Assembly: GCF_900115005.1 (NCBI RefSeq)
Contig: NZ_FOUY01000029.1
Coordinates: 1-64,000 of the forward strand
Reading direction: 5' to 3'
DNA length: 64,000 nucleotides
DNA from: Pseudonocardia ammonioxydans
GTDB taxonomy: Bacteria > Actinomycetota > Actinomycetes > Mycobacteriales > Pseudonocardiaceae
The first letter of the stretch is position 1, and the number at the start of each line of letters is the position of its first letter. The translations under genes were made by a program, and so were the position numbers. This document shows, one piece after another, positions 2,710 to 42,873 of this stretch. Below the pieces are notes generated by a model, which was not told where the DNA came from, made no database searches, and saw only the letters and a list, made by a program, of their open reading frames with translations.

Positions 2710-3321
2710 TCAGCTGACCTGCCCGCAGAGAAAGCGTTCCATCAGCTGCCGCGCGTCGAGGCCGAAAAGATTCAGCCGGCGGGTGTGACGCAGCAGGAGC
2801 AGACCGGAGGCGTGGGCGAACGCTTCCGCGGTGAGCCGATTCGCCTCCTCGGTACCGGCGAGTTCCTCGGCAGCGCTGCGGCTCGGCTCCAGGGTGGCCA
2901 GCAACGCGGTGTTGAGTTCCTGGTCGGCTTCGTCGTCGCCCAGTCCGCGAGGGGCCATCCCCCCGGCGAACAGGTAGAACCCCATGTCGAGGTCGCGGGG
3001 GTTGGCGTCGTAGAAGTCGAAGAACGCCAGGCCCGCGGCGATATAGCGCTGAGCCGCTCCGTCGATGCCGGCCACCGCGGTCTCGGTGTCGATGCGCAAC
3101 CGTTGCAGGGACTCACGCAGGGCTGCGGCGTAGAGGTGTTCCTTGCTCGGGAAGTAGCCGTAGATCGCCCCGGTGGCGTAGCCGGCCTCCTTGGCGATCG
3201 CCCGGATGCTCGCGTCGCGCAGCCCGTCACGGGCGAACACGCGGAGTGCCGCCTCGAGGATCAGTGCCCGCTTGGTCTCGGCCACAGCCTCGGCGCGTGC
3301 AGCGCGTGCGCCTCCCGGCAT
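2710..3321 (-). CDS. TetR/AcrR-family repressor
   Basis: One-component repressor. The N-terminal HTH is clear: ILEAALRVFARDG..DASIRAIAKEAGYATGAIYGYFPSKEHLYAA. The C-terminal part is a ligand-binding helical bundle ending in a Cys-containing tail. I place the start at ATG 3321 because AGGAAAGG (3331-3338, minus strand) lies 9 nt upstream of it. The longer GTG at 3330 would directly abut the ribosome-binding site. It is divergent from the acyl-CoA dehydrogenase-selD operon across a ~90-bp gap with two matching GAAC/GTTC palindromes, so it most likely represses that operon and itself. An effector such as an acyl-CoA is plausible but unproven. Confidence 0.9.
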   Translation of the reverse strand: MPGGARAARAEAVAETKRALILEAALRVFARDGLRDASIRAIAKEAGYATGAIYGYFPSKEHLYAAALRESLQRLRIDTETAVAGIDGAAQRYIAAGLAFFDFYDANPRDLDMGFYLFAGGMAPRGLGDDEADQELNTALLATLEPSRSAAEELAGTEEANRLTAEAFAHASGLLLLRHTRRLNLFGLDARQLMERFLCGQVS

Positions 3322-3363
3322 CAGTTCCACCCTTTCCTGCCGATGGCGACGACGCTACAGTCC

Positions 3364-3395
3364 GAACAGCGTTCATCCAAACGAACGGCGTTCGT
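3364..3395. promoter_or_regulatory. Twin palindromic operator between TetR gene and selD operon
   Basis: Two copies of GAAC-RGC-GTTC sit at 3364-3374 and 3383-3393, with centres 19 bp apart. The second extends to a 15-bp palindrome ACGAAC-GGC-GTTCGT (3381-3395). Size, symmetry and position between divergent genes fit a TetR-family binding site of two stacked dimers. A TACAGT at 3356-3361 could be the -10 of the rightward promoter. Binding is inferred. Confidence 0.6.
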
Positions 3396-3413: not shown

Positions 3414-4655
3414 ATGGCCGTCGCCGACATCGCTCCGAGCGAGCGGGTCCGCGCCTATACCGAGCGCTTCCGCACGTTCCTCGACACCGAGGTCGCCGAG
3501 CTGGAGACGGAACTGGCCCGGCAGAGCGCCGGCACGGCGAGTGGCCCGAAGTTCGACGAGCAGGGCCGCATGCATCCCGCGGTGTGGCAGGCACGTCGTG
3601 AGGTCCAGCGGCGCTCGGCCGCTCTGGGGCTCTACGCTCCGCACTCCGGCACCGCGGCCGGGGGTGGCGGGTTCGACCGGGTCGAGATGCACCACGTCGA
3701 GGAGTTCGTCTACCGGCACTCCGGCCTGGGACTGGGCCTGGCGGCGTTGGCCTGGACGGAGGGCCCGAACCCGGCGATCGAACACTGCTCGCCGGCCATG
3801 CGTGAGCAGTACCTGGCGCCGCTGATGGCCGGGAAGATCACCGCGGCGTTCTGCAACACCGAGATCGGAGCCGGCTCGGACGTGCTGCGGATGGCCACCC
3901 ACGCGACCCGCGACGGTGACGACTGGGTCATCAACGGCTCGAAGGGCTGGATCACCAACTCGCATTTCGCCGATGTCCTGCAGGTCGTGGCGGTCACCGA
4001 CCCGGGCGCCGGCACGCGGTCGCTGTCGATGTTCCTGATCGACGCCGACGCACCCGGGGTGAGCCGGGGGGCCGATCTGCCCACCACGATGGCCGACGGG
4101 CTGACCGGCACGCTGGAGTTCCGCGATGTGCGGGTGCCGGCCGAGAACGTCGTCGGCGAGGTCGGTGACGGTTTCGGTCTGGCCATGTCGTGGATCAACT
4201 GGCGCCGGCTGTGCCGCGGTGGCATGTGCGCCGGCTGGGGGGCGTGGCTGCTCGAGCGTGCCGTCGACTACGCCCGGCAGCGTGAGGTCGGCGGCAAGCC
4301 GATCGCCGCTCAACAGGCCGTGCAGCACATGCTCGCCGACATGGACGCCGACATCTACCAGGCCCGTTCGACCTCACTGGTCGCCCAGGCCGAGCTCGAC
4401 GTCCTCGGCCCCTACGGCACACCGCTGCACCGTGATGCGCCCCGGCTGATCAGCCTGGTGAAGGTCATCAACGACGAGGCGTTCTTCCGGGTCGCCGACA
4501 CCGCCATCCAGGTCCGAGGGGCGGTGGGTCTGGTGCAGGACTCGCCCGAGGAGAAGCTGTTCCGGGTGGCGCGCAACCTGCGGATCCCGGCCGGGACCTC
4601 GGAGATCCAGCGCAACGCCATCGCCCGCGGTCTGCTCAAGGCCACGGCGGCGTGA
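3414..4655 (+). CDS. Acyl-CoA dehydrogenase family flavoprotein
   Basis: A 413-residue FAD enzyme of the acyl-CoA dehydrogenase fold, expected to form an alpha,beta double bond in an acyl thioester and pass electrons to ETF. Visible are the flavin/substrate segment AFCNTEIGAGSD and WVINGSKGWITNS in the middle beta domain, and the C-terminal VRGAVGLVQDSPEEKLFRVARNLRIPAGTSEIQRN. At the place where many family members have the catalytic Glu (the YEG.. position) this protein has Ala in RIPAGTSEIQ, so the base may be elsewhere or chemistry may differ. ATG at 3414 follows GGAGGG; the frame is open further upstream but that part covers the operator. It is the first gene of the operon and its TGA overlaps selD by 1 nt. 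Confidence 0.88.
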   Translation: MAVADIAPSERVRAYTERFRTFLDTEVAELETELARQSAGTASGPKFDEQGRMHPAVWQARREVQRRSAALGLYAPHSGTAAGGGGFDRVEMHHVEEFVYRHSGLGLGLAALAWTEGPNPAIEHCSPAMREQYLAPLMAGKITAAFCNTEIGAGSDVLRMATHATRDGDDWVINGSKGWITNSHFADVLQVVAVTDPGAGTRSLSMFLIDADAPGVSRGADLPTTMADGLTGTLEFRDVRVPAENVVGEVGDGFGLAMSWINWRRLCRGGMCAGWGAWLLERAVDYARQREVGGKPIAAQQAVQHMLADMDADIYQARSTSLVAQAELDVLGPYGTPLHRDAPRLISLVKVINDEAFFRVADTAIQVRGAVGLVQDSPEEKLFRVARNLRIPAGTSEIQRNAIARGLLKATAA

Positions 4656-5746
4656 TGACCGCACCGGTTTCGCTCACACAGTTCTCGCCGGGCGGAGGTT
4701 GCGCGTGCAAGCTGCCCCAGCAGCTGCTCGACGAGGTACTGGGGCCGCTGCGTACCAGCGCAGCGCCCGGCGGGACCGACGCTCGCCTCCGGGTCGGGCT
4801 CGACCCCGCCGACGACGCCGCGGTCTACGACCTGCCCGGGTGGCACGGCCGATCGCTGGTCATGACGTGCGACTTCCTGACCCCGGTCGTGGACGACCCC
4901 TATGAATGGGGCCGGATCGCGGCGACCAACGCCCTGTCCGACGTCTACGCCATGGGTGGGCGTCCGCTGCTGGCGCTGAACCTGCTCGGCTGGCCATCGG
5001 ACCTCGACACCGAGCTGGTCGCCGAGGTTCTGCGCGGCGGGGCGGAAGCGGTCACCAGGGCGGGTGCGCTGCTCGCGGGCGGGCACAGCATCGTCGACCC
5101 CGCACCGAAGTACGGGCTCGCCGTCGTCGGCGAGGTCGCCCACGAGGCGATCCTGCGTAAGGGCGGCGGCCGGCCGGGTGACCGCCTGGTGCTGACCAAG
5201 CCCCTCGGCGTCGGCGTGATCGCCACCGCGGTCAAGCGGGGACGCGCCGCTGATTCCGAGGCGACAGGCGCCGTCGGGTCGATGACCCGGCTCAACGCCG
5301 CCGCCGCGCGTGCGGCGGTGGCCTGCGGACTGGTCGGCGGCACCGACATCACCGGATACGGCCTGATCGGGCACCTGCACGAGATGGCACTGGCCGGCGG
5401 CCTCGAGGCCAGGATCTGGGCGGGCGAGGTGCCGCTACTGCCCGGGGTCGCCCGGCTCGTCGCGAACGGGTGCGCACCCGACGGCAGCCGACGGACCCTG
5501 CAGGGTGCCCTGGACGCGGGCTGGTTCGTGCCGGGCAACGCGGACCCGGTCTGCCGGCTGCTGCTCGCCGACGCACAAACCTCCGGTGGTCTGTTGCTCG
5601 CCGCCCCTCCGACCGGGGTGGACGAGCTGCTGGCGACGCTGCACCGCGGCGGCGACACTGCGGCGACGGTCGTGGGCGAGCTGGTCGAGGGCATCCCCGG
5701 GCGTGTCCGCGTCGCGGCGAGCCAGGACGGGCGGGGGCGCGGATGA
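4655..5746 (+). CDS. selD: Selenide, water dikinase (selenophosphate synthetase)
   Basis: Makes selenophosphate from selenide and ATP, the activated selenium donor for selenocysteine, selenouridine or other selenium products. The N-terminal loop GGGCACK gives Cys16, Cys18 and Lys19 (17/19/20 if the GTG 3 nt upstream is used), matching the catalytic Cys/Lys of bacterial SelD. It is the cysteine form, not a selenoprotein. The family motifs DPADDAAVYDL, TCDFLTPVVDDPYEWGRIAA.N, GGHSIVDPAPKYGLAVVGEV and GGTDITGYGLIGHLHEMA follow in order. At ~363 residues it is full length. The start ATG overlaps the previous stop (TGATG) and its own stop overlaps the next ATG. No selA, selB, tRNA-Sec or selenoneine genes are in the window. 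Confidence 0.95.
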   Translation: MTAPVSLTQFSPGGGCACKLPQQLLDEVLGPLRTSAAPGGTDARLRVGLDPADDAAVYDLPGWHGRSLVMTCDFLTPVVDDPYEWGRIAATNALSDVYAMGGRPLLALNLLGWPSDLDTELVAEVLRGGAEAVTRAGALLAGGHSIVDPAPKYGLAVVGEVAHEAILRKGGGRPGDRLVLTKPLGVGVIATAVKRGRAADSEATGAVGSMTRLNAAAARAAVACGLVGGTDITGYGLIGHLHEMALAGGLEARIWAGEVPLLPGVARLVANGCAPDGSRRTLQGALDAGWFVPGNADPVCRLLLADAQTSGGLLLAAPPTGVDELLATLHRGGDTAATVVGELVEGIPGRVRVAASQDGRGRG

Positions 5747-6297
5747 GGCACCTGGCATGCGTGACCGGCCGCTTCCAACCGGTGCACGAACAGCACCTGG
5801 AACTGTTCGAACTGGCCCTGCGCGAGGCCGAGCACCTCGTGGTCGCGGTCACCAACCCCGACACCCGGGCCCGGCACGAGGAGACGACCTCCGAGCACCG
5901 CCACCTCGCCGAGGCCAATCCGTTCACCTACTACGAGCGCCTGCGACTGCTGGAGGCCGCGCTGGCGGAACGCGGCCTGTCGAACCGCACCGCGATCGTG
6001 CCCTTCGACCTGACCCGACCCGAGACTTGGCACGAGTACGTCCCGGGCCACGCACTGCAGTGGGTGCGTGCCTACAGCGCGTGGGAACGGCAGAAGGCCG
6101 GCCGGCTCGCCGACGCCGGATACGAGGTCACGGTCCTCGACGGCGACCCGGCGACCCGGCTGTCGGCTTCCGACATCCGCGCACATCTCGACGCCGACCG
6201 TGCGGTATGGGCACGCCTGGTCCCACCCGCCGTCGCGCCGGTGCTGTCCGAGCTGCTCGCCGACCGGAACCGGACCGACGCCGAGGAGGCGCCATGA
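5743..6297 (+). CDS. NMN-adenylyltransferase-like nucleotidyltransferase
   Basis: A 184-residue protein of the nucleotidylyltransferase superfamily, closest in style to archaeal NadM. The P-loop-like GRFQPVHEQH is the HxGH active-site region, here HEQH, so the Gly is replaced while both His are kept. NPFTYYERLRLLEAAL matches the NPFTAxER helix of NadM proteins, and RLSASDIRAHL corresponds to their ISGTEIR-type nucleotide-binding tail. It would transfer a nucleotidyl group onto a phosphate or phosphonate-like acceptor. Its acceptor is unknown, and a canonical NadD lies nearby, so a house-keeping NAD role is not needed. Both ends overlap neighbours by 4 nt (ATGA), indicating translational coupling between selD and the mutase-like gene. 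Confidence 0.85.
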   Translation: MRHLACVTGRFQPVHEQHLELFELALREAEHLVVAVTNPDTRARHEETTSEHRHLAEANPFTYYERLRLLEAALAERGLSNRTAIVPFDLTRPETWHEYVPGHALQWVRAYSAWERQKAGRLADAGYEVTVLDGDPATRLSASDIRAHLDADRAVWARLVPPAVAPVLSELLADRNRTDAEEAP

Positions 6298-7640
6298 AGC
6301 CCGCGGGCTACGGCGAGACCCAACCCCGACTCGACGACGACCGGCAACCGGTCGTGCTGGTCATTCTCGACGGACTGGGCGACCGCCCGATCCCCCAGCT
6401 CGGCGGCCGCACCCCGGCCGAAGCCGCCCACACCCCGCACCTCGACGCCCTGGTCCGTCGCGGCGCGAGCGGCTGGCACCTGCCGTTCGGCTGGGGCCGG
6501 GCGCCGGCCTCCGAGCTCGCCCACTGGGCCATGTTCGGCTACGCCGACGTGCCCTTCCCCGGCCGCGCCGTCCTCGAAGCCCTCGGCGGTGGCCTCGACG
6601 TCGACCCCGACAGCGCCGTCACCCACGCCAGCCTGCGCACCTCGCGCGTCGACGGGAACACGCTCACCCTCACCGGCAGGGCCCGACCGGACGACCTCGA
6701 CGACGTCACCGACCTGCTCACCGGGCTCGCCCCGGTCCTCCGTGAGCACGGCATGATCCTGCACCAGCTCGGAGGCCGAGGGGAGGCCCTCCTGTGCTCC
6801 CCGGCCCACCACAGCGGCGCCGTCACCGACTCCGACCCGCTGTTCGAGACCTTCCATCCCTGGATGCGCCCGGTCCCGACCGCGCCGGAAGCGGCGGCGT
6901 TCGCCGATGCCCTGACCGCCGCGCTGCTCGCGGCTCGCACTTGGCTGCGCACCAGCGACATCAACACACGCCGTGTCGCCCGCGGTCTGCCCGCGCTCGA
7001 CGTCCTCACCACCAAGTGGTCCGGCCGGCGCGGAACCATCCCGTCCTTCCTCGACCAGGTCGGCGTCACCGGAGCCGCGGTCACCAGCACCCGCCTCTAC
7101 CAGGGCATCGCCACCGCACTGGACATGACCTCGATCCACCTCGCCCCGGTCGACGACCTCGAGACCGACATGGCTGCCCGGCTCGACGCTGCCGAGCGAC
7201 TCATCGACGACGGGGCCCGGTTCGTGCACGTCCACACGAAGGCCACCGACGACGCCGGCCACACCAAACAGCCCTTCGCCAAACGCGACGTCCTGCACGC
7301 CATCGACCGCGGCCTGGCCGGACTCGGCGAGATCGCCGAGCGCGCCGTGGTCGCGGTGACCGGTGACCACGCGACCCCCTCCACCCACGGCGTCATGCAC
7401 GCCGGAGAACCGACCCCCCTGCTGGTGGCCGGACCCACCGTCCGGCCCGACGACGTGACGGAATGGGGCGAGCTACCGGCCAGATCGGGATGGTGGGGCC
7501 GTGTGCACGCCGCCGAACTCCTCCCGCTGCTGTTCGGACAGGCCAACCGCCCGGTCTTCATGGGCCACCGCATCACGGCCGGACCGGTCCCGGCGCTGGC
7601 CGACTCGCCCGAGGCGATGCCGATCCACGACCCGCCATGA
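6294..7640 (+). CDS. Archaeal-type phosphoglycerate mutase-like metalloenzyme
   Basis: A 448-residue member of the alkaline-phosphatase superfamily, aPGAM/ApgM branch (COG3635-like). Metal and core motifs seen are VLVILDGLGDRP at the N-terminus, ELAHWAMFGY...PGRAVLEALGGGL (equivalent to the DTAHLALFGY segment that carries the nucleophile), VHVHTKATDDAGHTKQ and VTGDHATPSTHGVMHAGEPTPLLVAG near the C-terminus. Family members move or remove phosphoryl groups. As the last gene of the selD operon, starting in an ATGA overlap, it likely acts on a phosphorylated intermediate of that pathway rather than in glycolysis, but this is inference. A 10-bp-stem hairpin follows 16 nt after the stop. Confidence 0.85.
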   Translation: MKPAGYGETQPRLDDDRQPVVLVILDGLGDRPIPQLGGRTPAEAAHTPHLDALVRRGASGWHLPFGWGRAPASELAHWAMFGYADVPFPGRAVLEALGGGLDVDPDSAVTHASLRTSRVDGNTLTLTGRARPDDLDDVTDLLTGLAPVLREHGMILHQLGGRGEALLCSPAHHSGAVTDSDPLFETFHPWMRPVPTAPEAAAFADALTAALLAARTWLRTSDINTRRVARGLPALDVLTTKWSGRRGTIPSFLDQVGVTGAAVTSTRLYQGIATALDMTSIHLAPVDDLETDMAARLDAAERLIDDGARFVHVHTKATDDAGHTKQPFAKRDVLHAIDRGLAGLGEIAERAVVAVTGDHATPSTHGVMHAGEPTPLLVAGPTVRPDDVTEWGELPARSGWWGRVHAAELLPLLFGQANRPVFMGHRITAGPVPALADSPEAMPIHDPP

Positions 7641-7854: not shown

Positions 7855-8448
7855 TCAGCGACCCGGATCCATGTAGAGACTGCGTTTGGAGATGTACTGG
7901 ACCACCCCGTCGGGCACGAGGTACCAGACCGGGCGACCCGCGGCGACGCGCGCGCGGCAGTCGCTCGACGAGATCGCCATCGCCGGCACCTCGACGGTCG
8001 AGGTGGACCCCTCGGGTAGGTGCCCGTCGGCCAGCTCGTAGCCGGGCCGGGTCACGCCGACGAAGTGCGCGTAGCGGAACAGCTCGTCGATCTTGCGCCA
8101 GGACAGGATCTGCTGGAGGGCGTCGGCGCCGGTGATGAAGAAGAGCTCGGCGTCGGGGATCGACGCGTGCAGGTCGGCGAGGGTGTCGGCGGTGTAGGTG
8201 AGTCCGCCGCGGTCGATGTCGACCCGGCTCACCGAGAAGCGGGGGTTCGAGGCGGTGGCGACGACCGTCATCAGGTAGCGGTCCTCGGCCGGGGAGACCT
8301 CGCGCTCGGACTTCTGCCACGGCTGCCCGGTCGGCACGAAGATCACTTCGTCCAGGCTGAAGCGGTCCGCCACCTCGCTGGCGGCGACGAGGTGACCGTG
8401 GTGGATGGGGTCGAACGTCCCGCCCATCACGCCGATCTTGCGGTGCAT
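7855..8448 (-). CDS. nadD: Nicotinate-nucleotide adenylyltransferase
   Basis: Adenylates nicotinate mononucleotide to deamido-NAD in NAD synthesis. The nucleotidyltransferase signature [13 protein letters not shown] near residue 8 contains the HxGH motif. [10 protein letters not shown] (substrate loop), [15 protein letters not shown] and the C-terminal [30 protein letters not shown], where the ISS..R motif binds ATP, are all typical. Length is 197 residues. ATG at 8448 is preceded by TAGTCT ending 6 nt upstream, a leaderless-promoter arrangement. In most actinobacteria nadD is followed by rsfS; here the convergent selD operon follows instead. Confidence 0.95.
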
Positions 8449-42351: not shown

Positions 42352-42873
42352 TCACAGGGGACGGACGAACAGGTGGACGTCGCGCGCGTCCTCGGCGGAG
42401 AGCCGCACCCCGCGCGGGAGCCGGCCGTACTCGACGAAGCCCCGCGCGGCGTAGAACGCGGGCAGCGGCGTGCCGCCGCGGGCGCCGAGGGTCAGCATCT
42501 CGACGCCCATCTCCCGGCCCTGCTCGACGGCCGCCTCGAGCAGCGCCGAGCCGAGGCCGTGCCCCTGGCGGTCGGGGCGGACCATCAGGCGCTGCACGTC
42601 GGCCCGGTGCGCGGCGATCCCGCTGCCCCGGACCAGGAACACCGTTCCCTCCGGGGCCACCTGGTCACCGATGACGACCATGCGCGCGGCCCCGGCACGG
42701 ACCTCGTCGATCGTGGCCACGGCCAGGTCCCGGATCTCGCCGGGGTCCCAGCCGGGCACGAAGTCGACGGCGCCGCCCGCCTCGGTCACGGCGATCCAGA
42801 GGTCGCCGAGCGCGGCGGCGGCACCGGGGTGCGGCTCGACGACCCGGCGCGCGGCCGGGGCGCCCGCCGTCAC
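42352..42873 (-). CDS. GNAT-family N-acetyltransferase
   Basis: A 173-residue acetyltransferase. The acetyl-CoA loop is [26 protein letters not shown] (Q/RxxGxG form), with [16 protein letters not shown] as the C-terminal strand. The substrate is unknown. Its GTG start overlaps the ndk stop by 4 nt (GTGA), so it is translationally coupled to ndk at the end of the valS operon. Confidence 0.88.

Follow-up and report, generated by a model that had tools for sequence, protein, structure and literature searches.

What does a second selenide, water dikinase do in a bacterium whose selenocysteine (Sec) locus has one of its own, and why is its gene held in overlapping frames with three enzymes from outside the known selenium traits? 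The question is raised by a 64,000-nucleotide stretch of the Pseudonocardia ammonioxydans genome (contig NZ_FOUY01000029.1, positions 1 to 64,000; hereafter the window), in which a SelD, here SelD2, is encoded together with an acyl-CoA-dehydrogenase-fold flavoprotein (the ACAD-like protein), a NadM-like nucleotidyltransferase (NTase) and an alkaline-phosphatase-superfamily enzyme similar to aPGM and PhpG (the PGM-like enzyme). To our knowledge, few uses of selenophosphate have been recognized. An earlier note on this DNA, made from its letters alone, had linked selenophosphate to the three partner enzymes, and the link is well supported: the neighbours stay together in distant phyla, the SelDs of the operon belong to one clade, and in Panacagrimonas perspica the SelD is an orphan by the searches made. 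We consider it likely that the four enzymes make up a dedicated selenophosphate-consuming pathway that spreads horizontally, and the best reading is a selenium trait separate from Sec, selenouridine, the molybdenum-hydroxylase selenium cofactor and selenoneine.

The operon and its SelD

The four genes of the operon lie on one strand of the window and overlap successively by 1, 4 and 4 nt; these overlaps, already given in the earlier note, and the gene coordinates were confirmed by reading the window, and each of its family identities was borne out by family profile searches. The features are as follows, the flanking ones last.

3414..4655, plus strand: ACAD-like protein, acyl-CoA-dehydrogenase-fold flavoprotein (Acyl-CoA_dh_1/M/N)
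4655..5746, plus strand: SelD2, selenide, water dikinase of a cluster-specific clade (TIGR00476)
5743..6297, plus strand: NTase, NadM-like nucleotidyltransferase, HxQH variant (CTP_transf_like)
6294..7640, plus strand: PGM-like enzyme, aPGM/PhpG-like member of the alkaline phosphatase superfamily (Metalloenzyme plus PhosphMutase)
2710..3330, minus strand: TetR-family regulator, divergent from the operon (TetR_N PF00440, 59.7 bits)
3364..3393: probable TetR operator, two GAAC-N3-GTTC palindromes starting at 3364 and 3383, 19 bp apart, kept in some relatives
7855-8448, minus strand: nadD, 3' of the PGM-like gene, scoring as a normal nicotinate-nucleotide adenylyltransferase

SelD2 belongs to the SelD family by its score against TIGR00476 (343.8 bits, curated cut-off 125), and its C16, C18 and K19 are invariant among 11 aligned sequences. 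The genome (7.36 Mb, 99.99% complete, 3.92% contamination) holds a second SelD on contig C76 (99630-100547), grouped with selA (96710-97981) and tRNA-Sec (103105-103196). Because Sec is thus served by its own locus, the SelD of the window is an additional copy, and its candidacy as the Sec SelD of the genome is ruled out. The statement that no SelA/SelB or tRNA-Sec is visible therefore holds for the window and fails for the genome as regards selA and tRNA-Sec, SelB not having been searched for. Family profile searches of the whole genome found no SelU, SenB or YqeB (no search was made for YqeC), so that roles in selenoneine, selenouridine and selenium-dependent molybdenum hydroxylases were rejected; the lack of partners for these traits, which the earlier note had reported, extends genome-wide, and its proposed look-up of selA and senB elsewhere in the genome returned the former only.

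The SelDs found inside such clusters form one clade (13 of 13, branch support 100/100), apart from 26 other SelDs, many of them from the same genomes, in a tree for which the program flags several long branches. The 13 come from the window, six loci of Pseudonocardia and Saccharopolyspora (L056, L057, L058, L061, L062 and L063), locus L025 of genome G137, an actinobacterial metagenome-assembled genome (MAG), Panacagrimonas, Methylobacterium and two Rhodococcus plasmids. The clade carries the loop GGGCACK(L/M)PQ (GGGCACKLPQ in SelD2, AGGCACKVPQ in Methylobacterium), and the PQ is absent from that place in all 26 others. Against TIGR00476 the bacterial in-cluster SelDs reach 328-372 bits, or 176 in one case cut by a contig end.

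Among SelDs outside the cluster, those of ten genomes from some Pseudonocardiaceae and MAGs contain one in-frame TGA (G037, G071, G121, G155, G157, G167, G182, G185, G186 and G192), and are probably selenoproteins themselves.

An orphan SelD in Panacagrimonas perspica

P. perspica DSM 26377 (G164) has a single SelD, and it is located in the cluster. Genome searches found no SelA, SelU, SenB or YqeB in this isolate (none was made for SelB or YqeC), and an Actinobacteria MAG, G177, presents the same pattern, with SelD in the cluster and SelA, SelU, SenB and YqeB not found. Candidate tRNA-Sec matches in the two genomes, at 48 and 50 bits (cut-off 47), proved to be tRNA-Ser. P. perspica thus breaks any rule that selA and tRNA-Sec accompany every SelD cluster. 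SelD was found in 3 of 60 relatives of P. perspica, and the ACAD-like protein, NTase and PGM-like enzyme were not found within ~3.9 kb around it in those three.

At least 26 organisms with orphan selD have been counted among 5,207 bacteria, and an unknown SelD-based trait is suspected (PMC5029168). The orphan-selD neighbours named in the available part of that survey are isochorismatase-like, ABC ATPase and cysteine-desulfurase-like proteins, and not the three partners considered here.

Distribution in bacteria

Conclusions on distribution rest on tblastn and family searches. In a sample of 150 genomes of the Pseudonocardiaceae, matches to the PGM-like enzyme occur in 12, of which 11, including the window, are full length and one is short (E 1e-4). 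The ACAD-like protein, NTase and PGM-like enzyme are clustered in the window and in all 10 relatives; SelD lies between the ACAD-like gene and the NTase in 5 of these 11 clusters, is not in the cluster in 6, and is encoded elsewhere in the genome in 10 of 10 cluster-bearing relatives.

A wider, non-exhaustive scan of 84,980 species genomes, based on an alignment of the PGM-like enzyme and two degenerate patterns, yielded 44 loci, partly from the same genomes as the family sample and with no Rhodococcus or Halobaculum locus in the list. Most are from Pseudonocardia and Actinomycetospora; others are from Saccharopolyspora, Amycolatopsis, P. perspica, Methylobacterium and MAGs labelled Pseudonocardiaceae, Burkholderiaceae, Actinobacteria, Chloroflexi, Acidimicrobiia, Deltaproteobacteria or simply 'bacterium'. 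By tblastn the NTase accompanies the PGM-like gene in 42 of 44 loci (the exceptions being L089 and the truncated contig L073), and an ACAD-like protein of more than 40% identity is present in 40 (the exceptions being L089, L097 and two truncated loci, L059 and L073); the PGM-like gene is fragmented at L089 and L098, as is the ACAD-like gene at L098. SelD lies inside the cluster at ten loci (L056-L059, L061-L063, L070, L083 and L084), and somewhere in the genome in 42 of 44.

The order ACAD-SelD-NTase-PGM, mostly with a TetR gene near, recurs in Pseudonocardia, Saccharopolyspora, the gammaproteobacterium Panacagrimonas and an actinobacterial MAG; in Methylobacterium the SelD and ACAD-like genes are divergent from the NTase and PGM-like genes. 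The co-occurrence search that the earlier note had suggested thus finds the three partners together in distant phyla. The earlier note had also named a sole selD, in a genome with a full Sec system and among freely varying neighbours, as the picture that would speak against its reading; what was found is a second selD and partners that stay together across phyla. Outside the Pseudonocardiaceae, all five genomes in whose cluster no SelD was seen encode one elsewhere (L080, L091, L092, L097 and L098). SelD occurs in 33.7% of bacteria (1,754 organisms) according to the available part of PMC5029168, and against that background five of five has, by our own arithmetic, a chance of ~0.4%.

Markers of the selenium traits other than Sec were found in few cluster genomes. 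Of 15 searched, SelU/MnmH (TIGR03167) was found in one, not that of the window; YqeB (TIGR03309) in none, YqeC having had no search; and SenB (TIGR04348) in two, neither that of the window nor P. perspica. The selenoneine operon (SenA, SenB and SenC, the last a SelD) likewise joins selD to enzymes that place selenium in a small molecule independently of Sec; it differs in its partners and in SenB, not found in the other 13 of these genomes. Formation of ovoselenol also requires SenB.

Fragments of the PGM-like gene (residues 395-446, 75-77% identity) were seen at L032:8798-8953 and L033:8979-9134, in two genomes of genus g46, taken as Saccharopolyspora; that at L032 is ~5 kb from a Sec-type selD, as if it were a decayed second copy.

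Mobile carriers and a haloarchaeal form

SelD, NTase and the PGM-like gene are adjacent on five Rhodococcus plasmids, though in one of them coverage of the last stops at residue 377. On the two whose annotation was read, TetR-ACAD-SelD-NTase-PGM are co-directional and the four enzyme genes overlap one another by 4 nt; both plasmids are typed mobilizable, so the cassette appears to move as a unit. The same gene order and overlaps in the Rhodococcus plasmids, Panacagrimonas and others make the operon more than a chance arrangement.

Six Halobaculum plasmids carry relatives of the PGM-like enzyme (33-35% identity) and of the NTase (32-38%). On all six, an annotated acyl-CoA dehydrogenase adjoins the PGM-like gene, and a 'hypothetical protein' lies between the PGM-like and NTase genes, adjoining both. 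In the two plasmids read, the dehydrogenase has 44% identity to the ACAD-like protein, with the NWRR, GMC and RNLRIPAGT signatures in common. The intervening 481-aa protein is unknown to Pfam, and a reading of the haloarchaeal set as SelD-free was entertained and rejected: that of plasmid locus L102 has SelD-like CGCAGK, DSDAAV and NDVYASG motifs, and those of L102 and L103 score 119 and 100 bits against NF038049 (cut-off 250), a family titled 'SelD-related putative sulfur metabolism protein', with 23 and 27 bits against TIGR00476 (cut-off 125). Weaker support comes from a profile comparison (56% probability, E 1e-4), and a profile search of PDB gave no match. SelD-relatedness was checked in two Halobaculum plasmids and in a Halorussus salilacus plasmid, where L125:6659-9754 places a SelD relative (NF038049, 173 bits) together with genes for an NTase and a Mn-pyrophosphatase-like protein. 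The 16 kb read there contains neither an annotated acyl-CoA dehydrogenase nor a gene annotated to the alkaline phosphatase family, and the set may be a reduced form of the module. Across these arrangements, the link of the NTase with SelD or a relative holds under differing gene orders.

The haloarchaeal protein raises the question of sulfur. A SelD-like family found only in two crenarchaeal orders, near sulfur genes, has been proposed to make thiophosphate, in the part of the paper available (PMC4210487). As a SelD-related dikinase without a known selenium trait it resembles the haloarchaeal relative found inside the module; the bacterial module differs in having a genuine SelD. If the in-cluster SelD were likewise a thiophosphate synthetase, the product would be a thio compound. 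The NF038049 matches and the crenarchaeal proposal point that way, as does a SufS cysteine desulfurase gene ~7 kb upstream of the ACAD-like gene in L102. We consider this improbable, since the bacterial in-cluster SelDs score far above the TIGR00476 cut-off with the Cys/Lys loop kept, and nearly all genomes without an in-cluster SelD have a genuine one.

More distant NTases on four other plasmids adjoin phosphoenolpyruvate (PEP)/pyruvate-binding proteins, another water-dikinase-like family, which hints that the NTase family may act on the product of a dikinase. At L126:5983-10346, on Treponema saccharophilum plasmid pTS2, an NTase relative is followed by genes for a PEP/pyruvate-binding protein, a cysteine desulfurase and a radical SAM protein of the viperin family, and L123 likewise has NTase, PEP/pyruvate-binding and radical SAM genes; the L126 group is possibly a nucleotide-modifying or defence module.

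Points against a selenophosphate pathway

Several observations weigh against a dedicated selenophosphate pathway. By tblastn no SelD was seen in the cluster at 34 of 44 loci (L073 being truncated), so that for these its selenophosphate would have to come from a SelD elsewhere in the genome, and no SelD was found in two of the 44 genomes, MAGs L064/G158 and L096/G190; G158 is probably incomplete, as it has a true tRNA-Sec without SelD. Co-occurrence with SelD in the family sample speaks for the pathway, but the statistic is weak and ignores kinship: 103 of 150 genomes have SelD, among them 11 of 11 with the cluster and 92 of the 139 that lack it (Fisher p 0.013). The orphan case consists of one isolate genome and one MAG. 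In the families that they match, neither the NTase nor the PGM-like enzyme reaches the specific cut-off, and the haloarchaea use a distant SelD-related protein from a family for which sulfur or thiophosphate has been proposed. CoA-transferase III genes close to some clusters (L091, L092 and L097 by Pfam; L082 and L089 by BLAST grouping) are left unexplained by the pathway model; the L092 neighbourhood also has RraA-like, 2-hydroxyacid dehydrogenase, HMGL-like and luciferase-like genes. Finally, selA is present in 39 of 45 genomes, including four of the five outside the family with SelD outside the cluster, and Sec alone could therefore explain SelD in most genomes; selA was not found in G158, G164, G177, G181, G186 and G190, of which G181 and G158 do have tRNA-Sec.

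Two other explanations draw on these points. The ACAD-like protein, NTase and PGM-like enzyme might form a pathway independent of selenium, catabolic or phosphinate-like, into which selD was inserted once and then spread. The many clusters with no SelD seen would fit such a history, as would the CoA-transferase III, luciferase-like monooxygenase and transporter genes close to some divergent clusters, and the single in-cluster SelD clade is compatible with one insertion. Against this stand the SelD elsewhere in nearly all of those 34 genomes and the haloarchaeal module, which holds its SelD-related gene at a different position, and we regard the explanation as unlikely. Less credible still is that SelD2 only boosts selenophosphate for Sec among unrelated neighbours: the prevalence of SelA would suit it, as would three Actinomycetospora genomes (genus g42; G042, G118 and G075) in which a SelD-less cluster is about 52-55 kb from the other selD on one contig, but it is contradicted by P. 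perspica, and gene order and the cluster-specific SelD clade are kept across phyla.

The partner enzymes

The ACAD-like protein has Ala393 at the position of the Glu in the YEGT of its three best PDB matches. This position is Ala in 38 and Gly in one of 39 sequences, which sets the family apart from classical acyl-CoA dehydrogenases, while INWRR is near-invariant and RGGMC invariant. A second site, which we take to be the alternative catalytic-base position, is Arg in 37 of the 39.

The earlier note had observed an altered HxGH motif in the NTase, and the change is real: the motif is HEQH in the window and HxQH in nine of ten aligned bacterial members, and two Halobaculum members have the normal HDGH. 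R10, H15, H18 and R146 are invariant in 20 sequences. The structural model (pLDDT 88.1) has as its closest solved fold the nicotinamide mononucleotide (NMN) adenylyltransferase (NMNAT) of M. thermoautotrophicum; the NTase thus shares with NadM, the archaeal NMN adenylyltransferase, its fold and the catalytic R/H/H/R residues, and differs in having TNPD in place of GSAQ, in scores under the NMNAT cut-offs (60.3 against 127 bits; TIGR01527, 47.9 against 181.2 bits) and in the separate nadD next to the operon. These scores and the normal nadD next door rule out plain NAD biosynthesis.

In the PGM-like enzyme, D26, S73, D319, H323, D358, H359 and H369 are invariant in 20 sequences. Alignment to its nearest structure, P. 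horikoshii 2zkt (model pLDDT 79.6), places among them the Ser nucleophile and metal ligands of the aPGM superfamily, roles that we assume for these residues, and membership of that superfamily follows. The enzyme scores 232.6 bits against aPGM TIGR00306 (cut-off 320) and 165.8 bits against the PhpG phosphonoformyl transferase NF038358 (cut-off 545). The comparison with phosphinate biosynthesis made in the earlier note is therefore well supported, with a PhpG match below its cut-off.

Phosphinothricin biosynthesis, as far as its description was available to us, likewise has a PF01467 nucleotidyltransferase (PhpF) and an aPGM-like enzyme (PhpG) in one pathway; the operon differs in the presence of SelD and in the distance from PhpG. 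The likeness of the NTase to PhpF is one of shared Pfam, and the function of PhpG is taken from its NCBIfam name; we presume that the PhpG transfer step comes after PhpF. The assignment of PhpF to PF01467, the Pfam of the NTase, is given in the available part of PMC6697681.

The TetR regulator

The TetR gene is separated from the ACAD-like gene by an intergenic stretch of 83 bp, which holds the palindrome pair. Among 18 upstream regions of related loci that were read, the same pair with the same spacing is found at L057 and L095, one exact copy at L056, L058, L062 and L068, and degenerate copies at L083 and L084; no GAAC-N3-GTTC palindrome was found in the other 10 of the 18, although at L070 and L100 the TetR gene lies upstream in the same direction and the region read is not the promoter. 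Comparison of 46 loci showed a related TetR close to the cluster in 10, including Panacagrimonas, Methylobacterium and a Rhodococcus plasmid, and the regulator would control formation of the product. Folding of the promoter strand gave nothing notable (z -0.74). A third exact GAAC-N3-GTTC site occurs in the window at 42637.

A possible pathway

From its family and residues, SelD2 very probably converts selenide and ATP into selenophosphate. The NTase may then place a nucleotide on a phosphorylated substrate, most likely selenophosphate or its future acceptor, after which the PGM-like enzyme could pass the (seleno)phosphoryl group, now activated, on to an acceptor in the way that PhpG would after PhpF. 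We put forward this order of activation and transfer tentatively. Having lost the usual catalytic Glu, the ACAD-like protein might catalyse a redox or elimination reaction of unusual type, with an acyl or acyl-thioester intermediate as its substrate; the CoA-transferase III genes and a KASIII gene in Halobaculum suggest acyl-CoA chemistry. The product is probably a selenium-containing small molecule or cofactor, and it would be intracellular, as the conserved core has no transporter.

Selenophosphate might instead serve the same pathway as a selenium nucleophile. The NTase and the PGM-like enzyme, with the ACAD-like protein, would make an activated electrophile, e.g. an unsaturated acyl intermediate or one linked to a nucleoside diphosphate, and its attack by selenophosphate would create a C-Se bond in the manner of SelA and SenB. 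This branch, which accounts for a lesser part of the likelihood of the selenophosphate pathway and adds nothing to it, is possible if doubtful. The characterized users of selenophosphate are known to attack carbon electrophiles, and the ACAD-like protein with the nearby CoA-transferase III or KASIII genes implies acyl-CoA chemistry; the core has no glycosyltransferase, SelA-like or other known selenium-transfer enzyme, and the Halorussus NTase, beside a SelD relative with no ACAD- or PGM-type gene annotated in the stretch read, fits an NTase acting on the product of a dikinase.

The fullest version of the selenophosphate pathway is a trait of both bacteria and haloarchaea, the latter with a divergent chalcogenophosphate synthetase, in which the NTase would nucleotidylate selenophosphate to give a nucleoside-diphosphate-like carrier of selenium, the serine of the PGM-like enzyme would hand the selenophosphoryl group to an acceptor and the base-less ACAD-like protein would complete a selenium cofactor. 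In all its parts together this is a speculative proposal that we think rather unlikely to be right throughout.

Implications

Among the open-licence papers listed, we found no description of the ACAD-SelD-NTase-PGM set. What would be new here is a selD-dependent trait with wholly different partners from the known ones, and the partner enzymes predict selenium chemistry unlike that of SelA, SelU or SenB. The haloarchaeal form offers a way into an unexplained SelD-related family. If the proposed activation is correct, nucleotidylated selenophosphate would be, as far as we know, the first nucleotide-activated selenium. The module is a concrete candidate for the suspected unknown SelD-based trait, with P. 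perspica and the Rhodococcus plasmids as natural carriers, and a trait shared in this way, if real, might account for part of the orphan selD genes in the literature.

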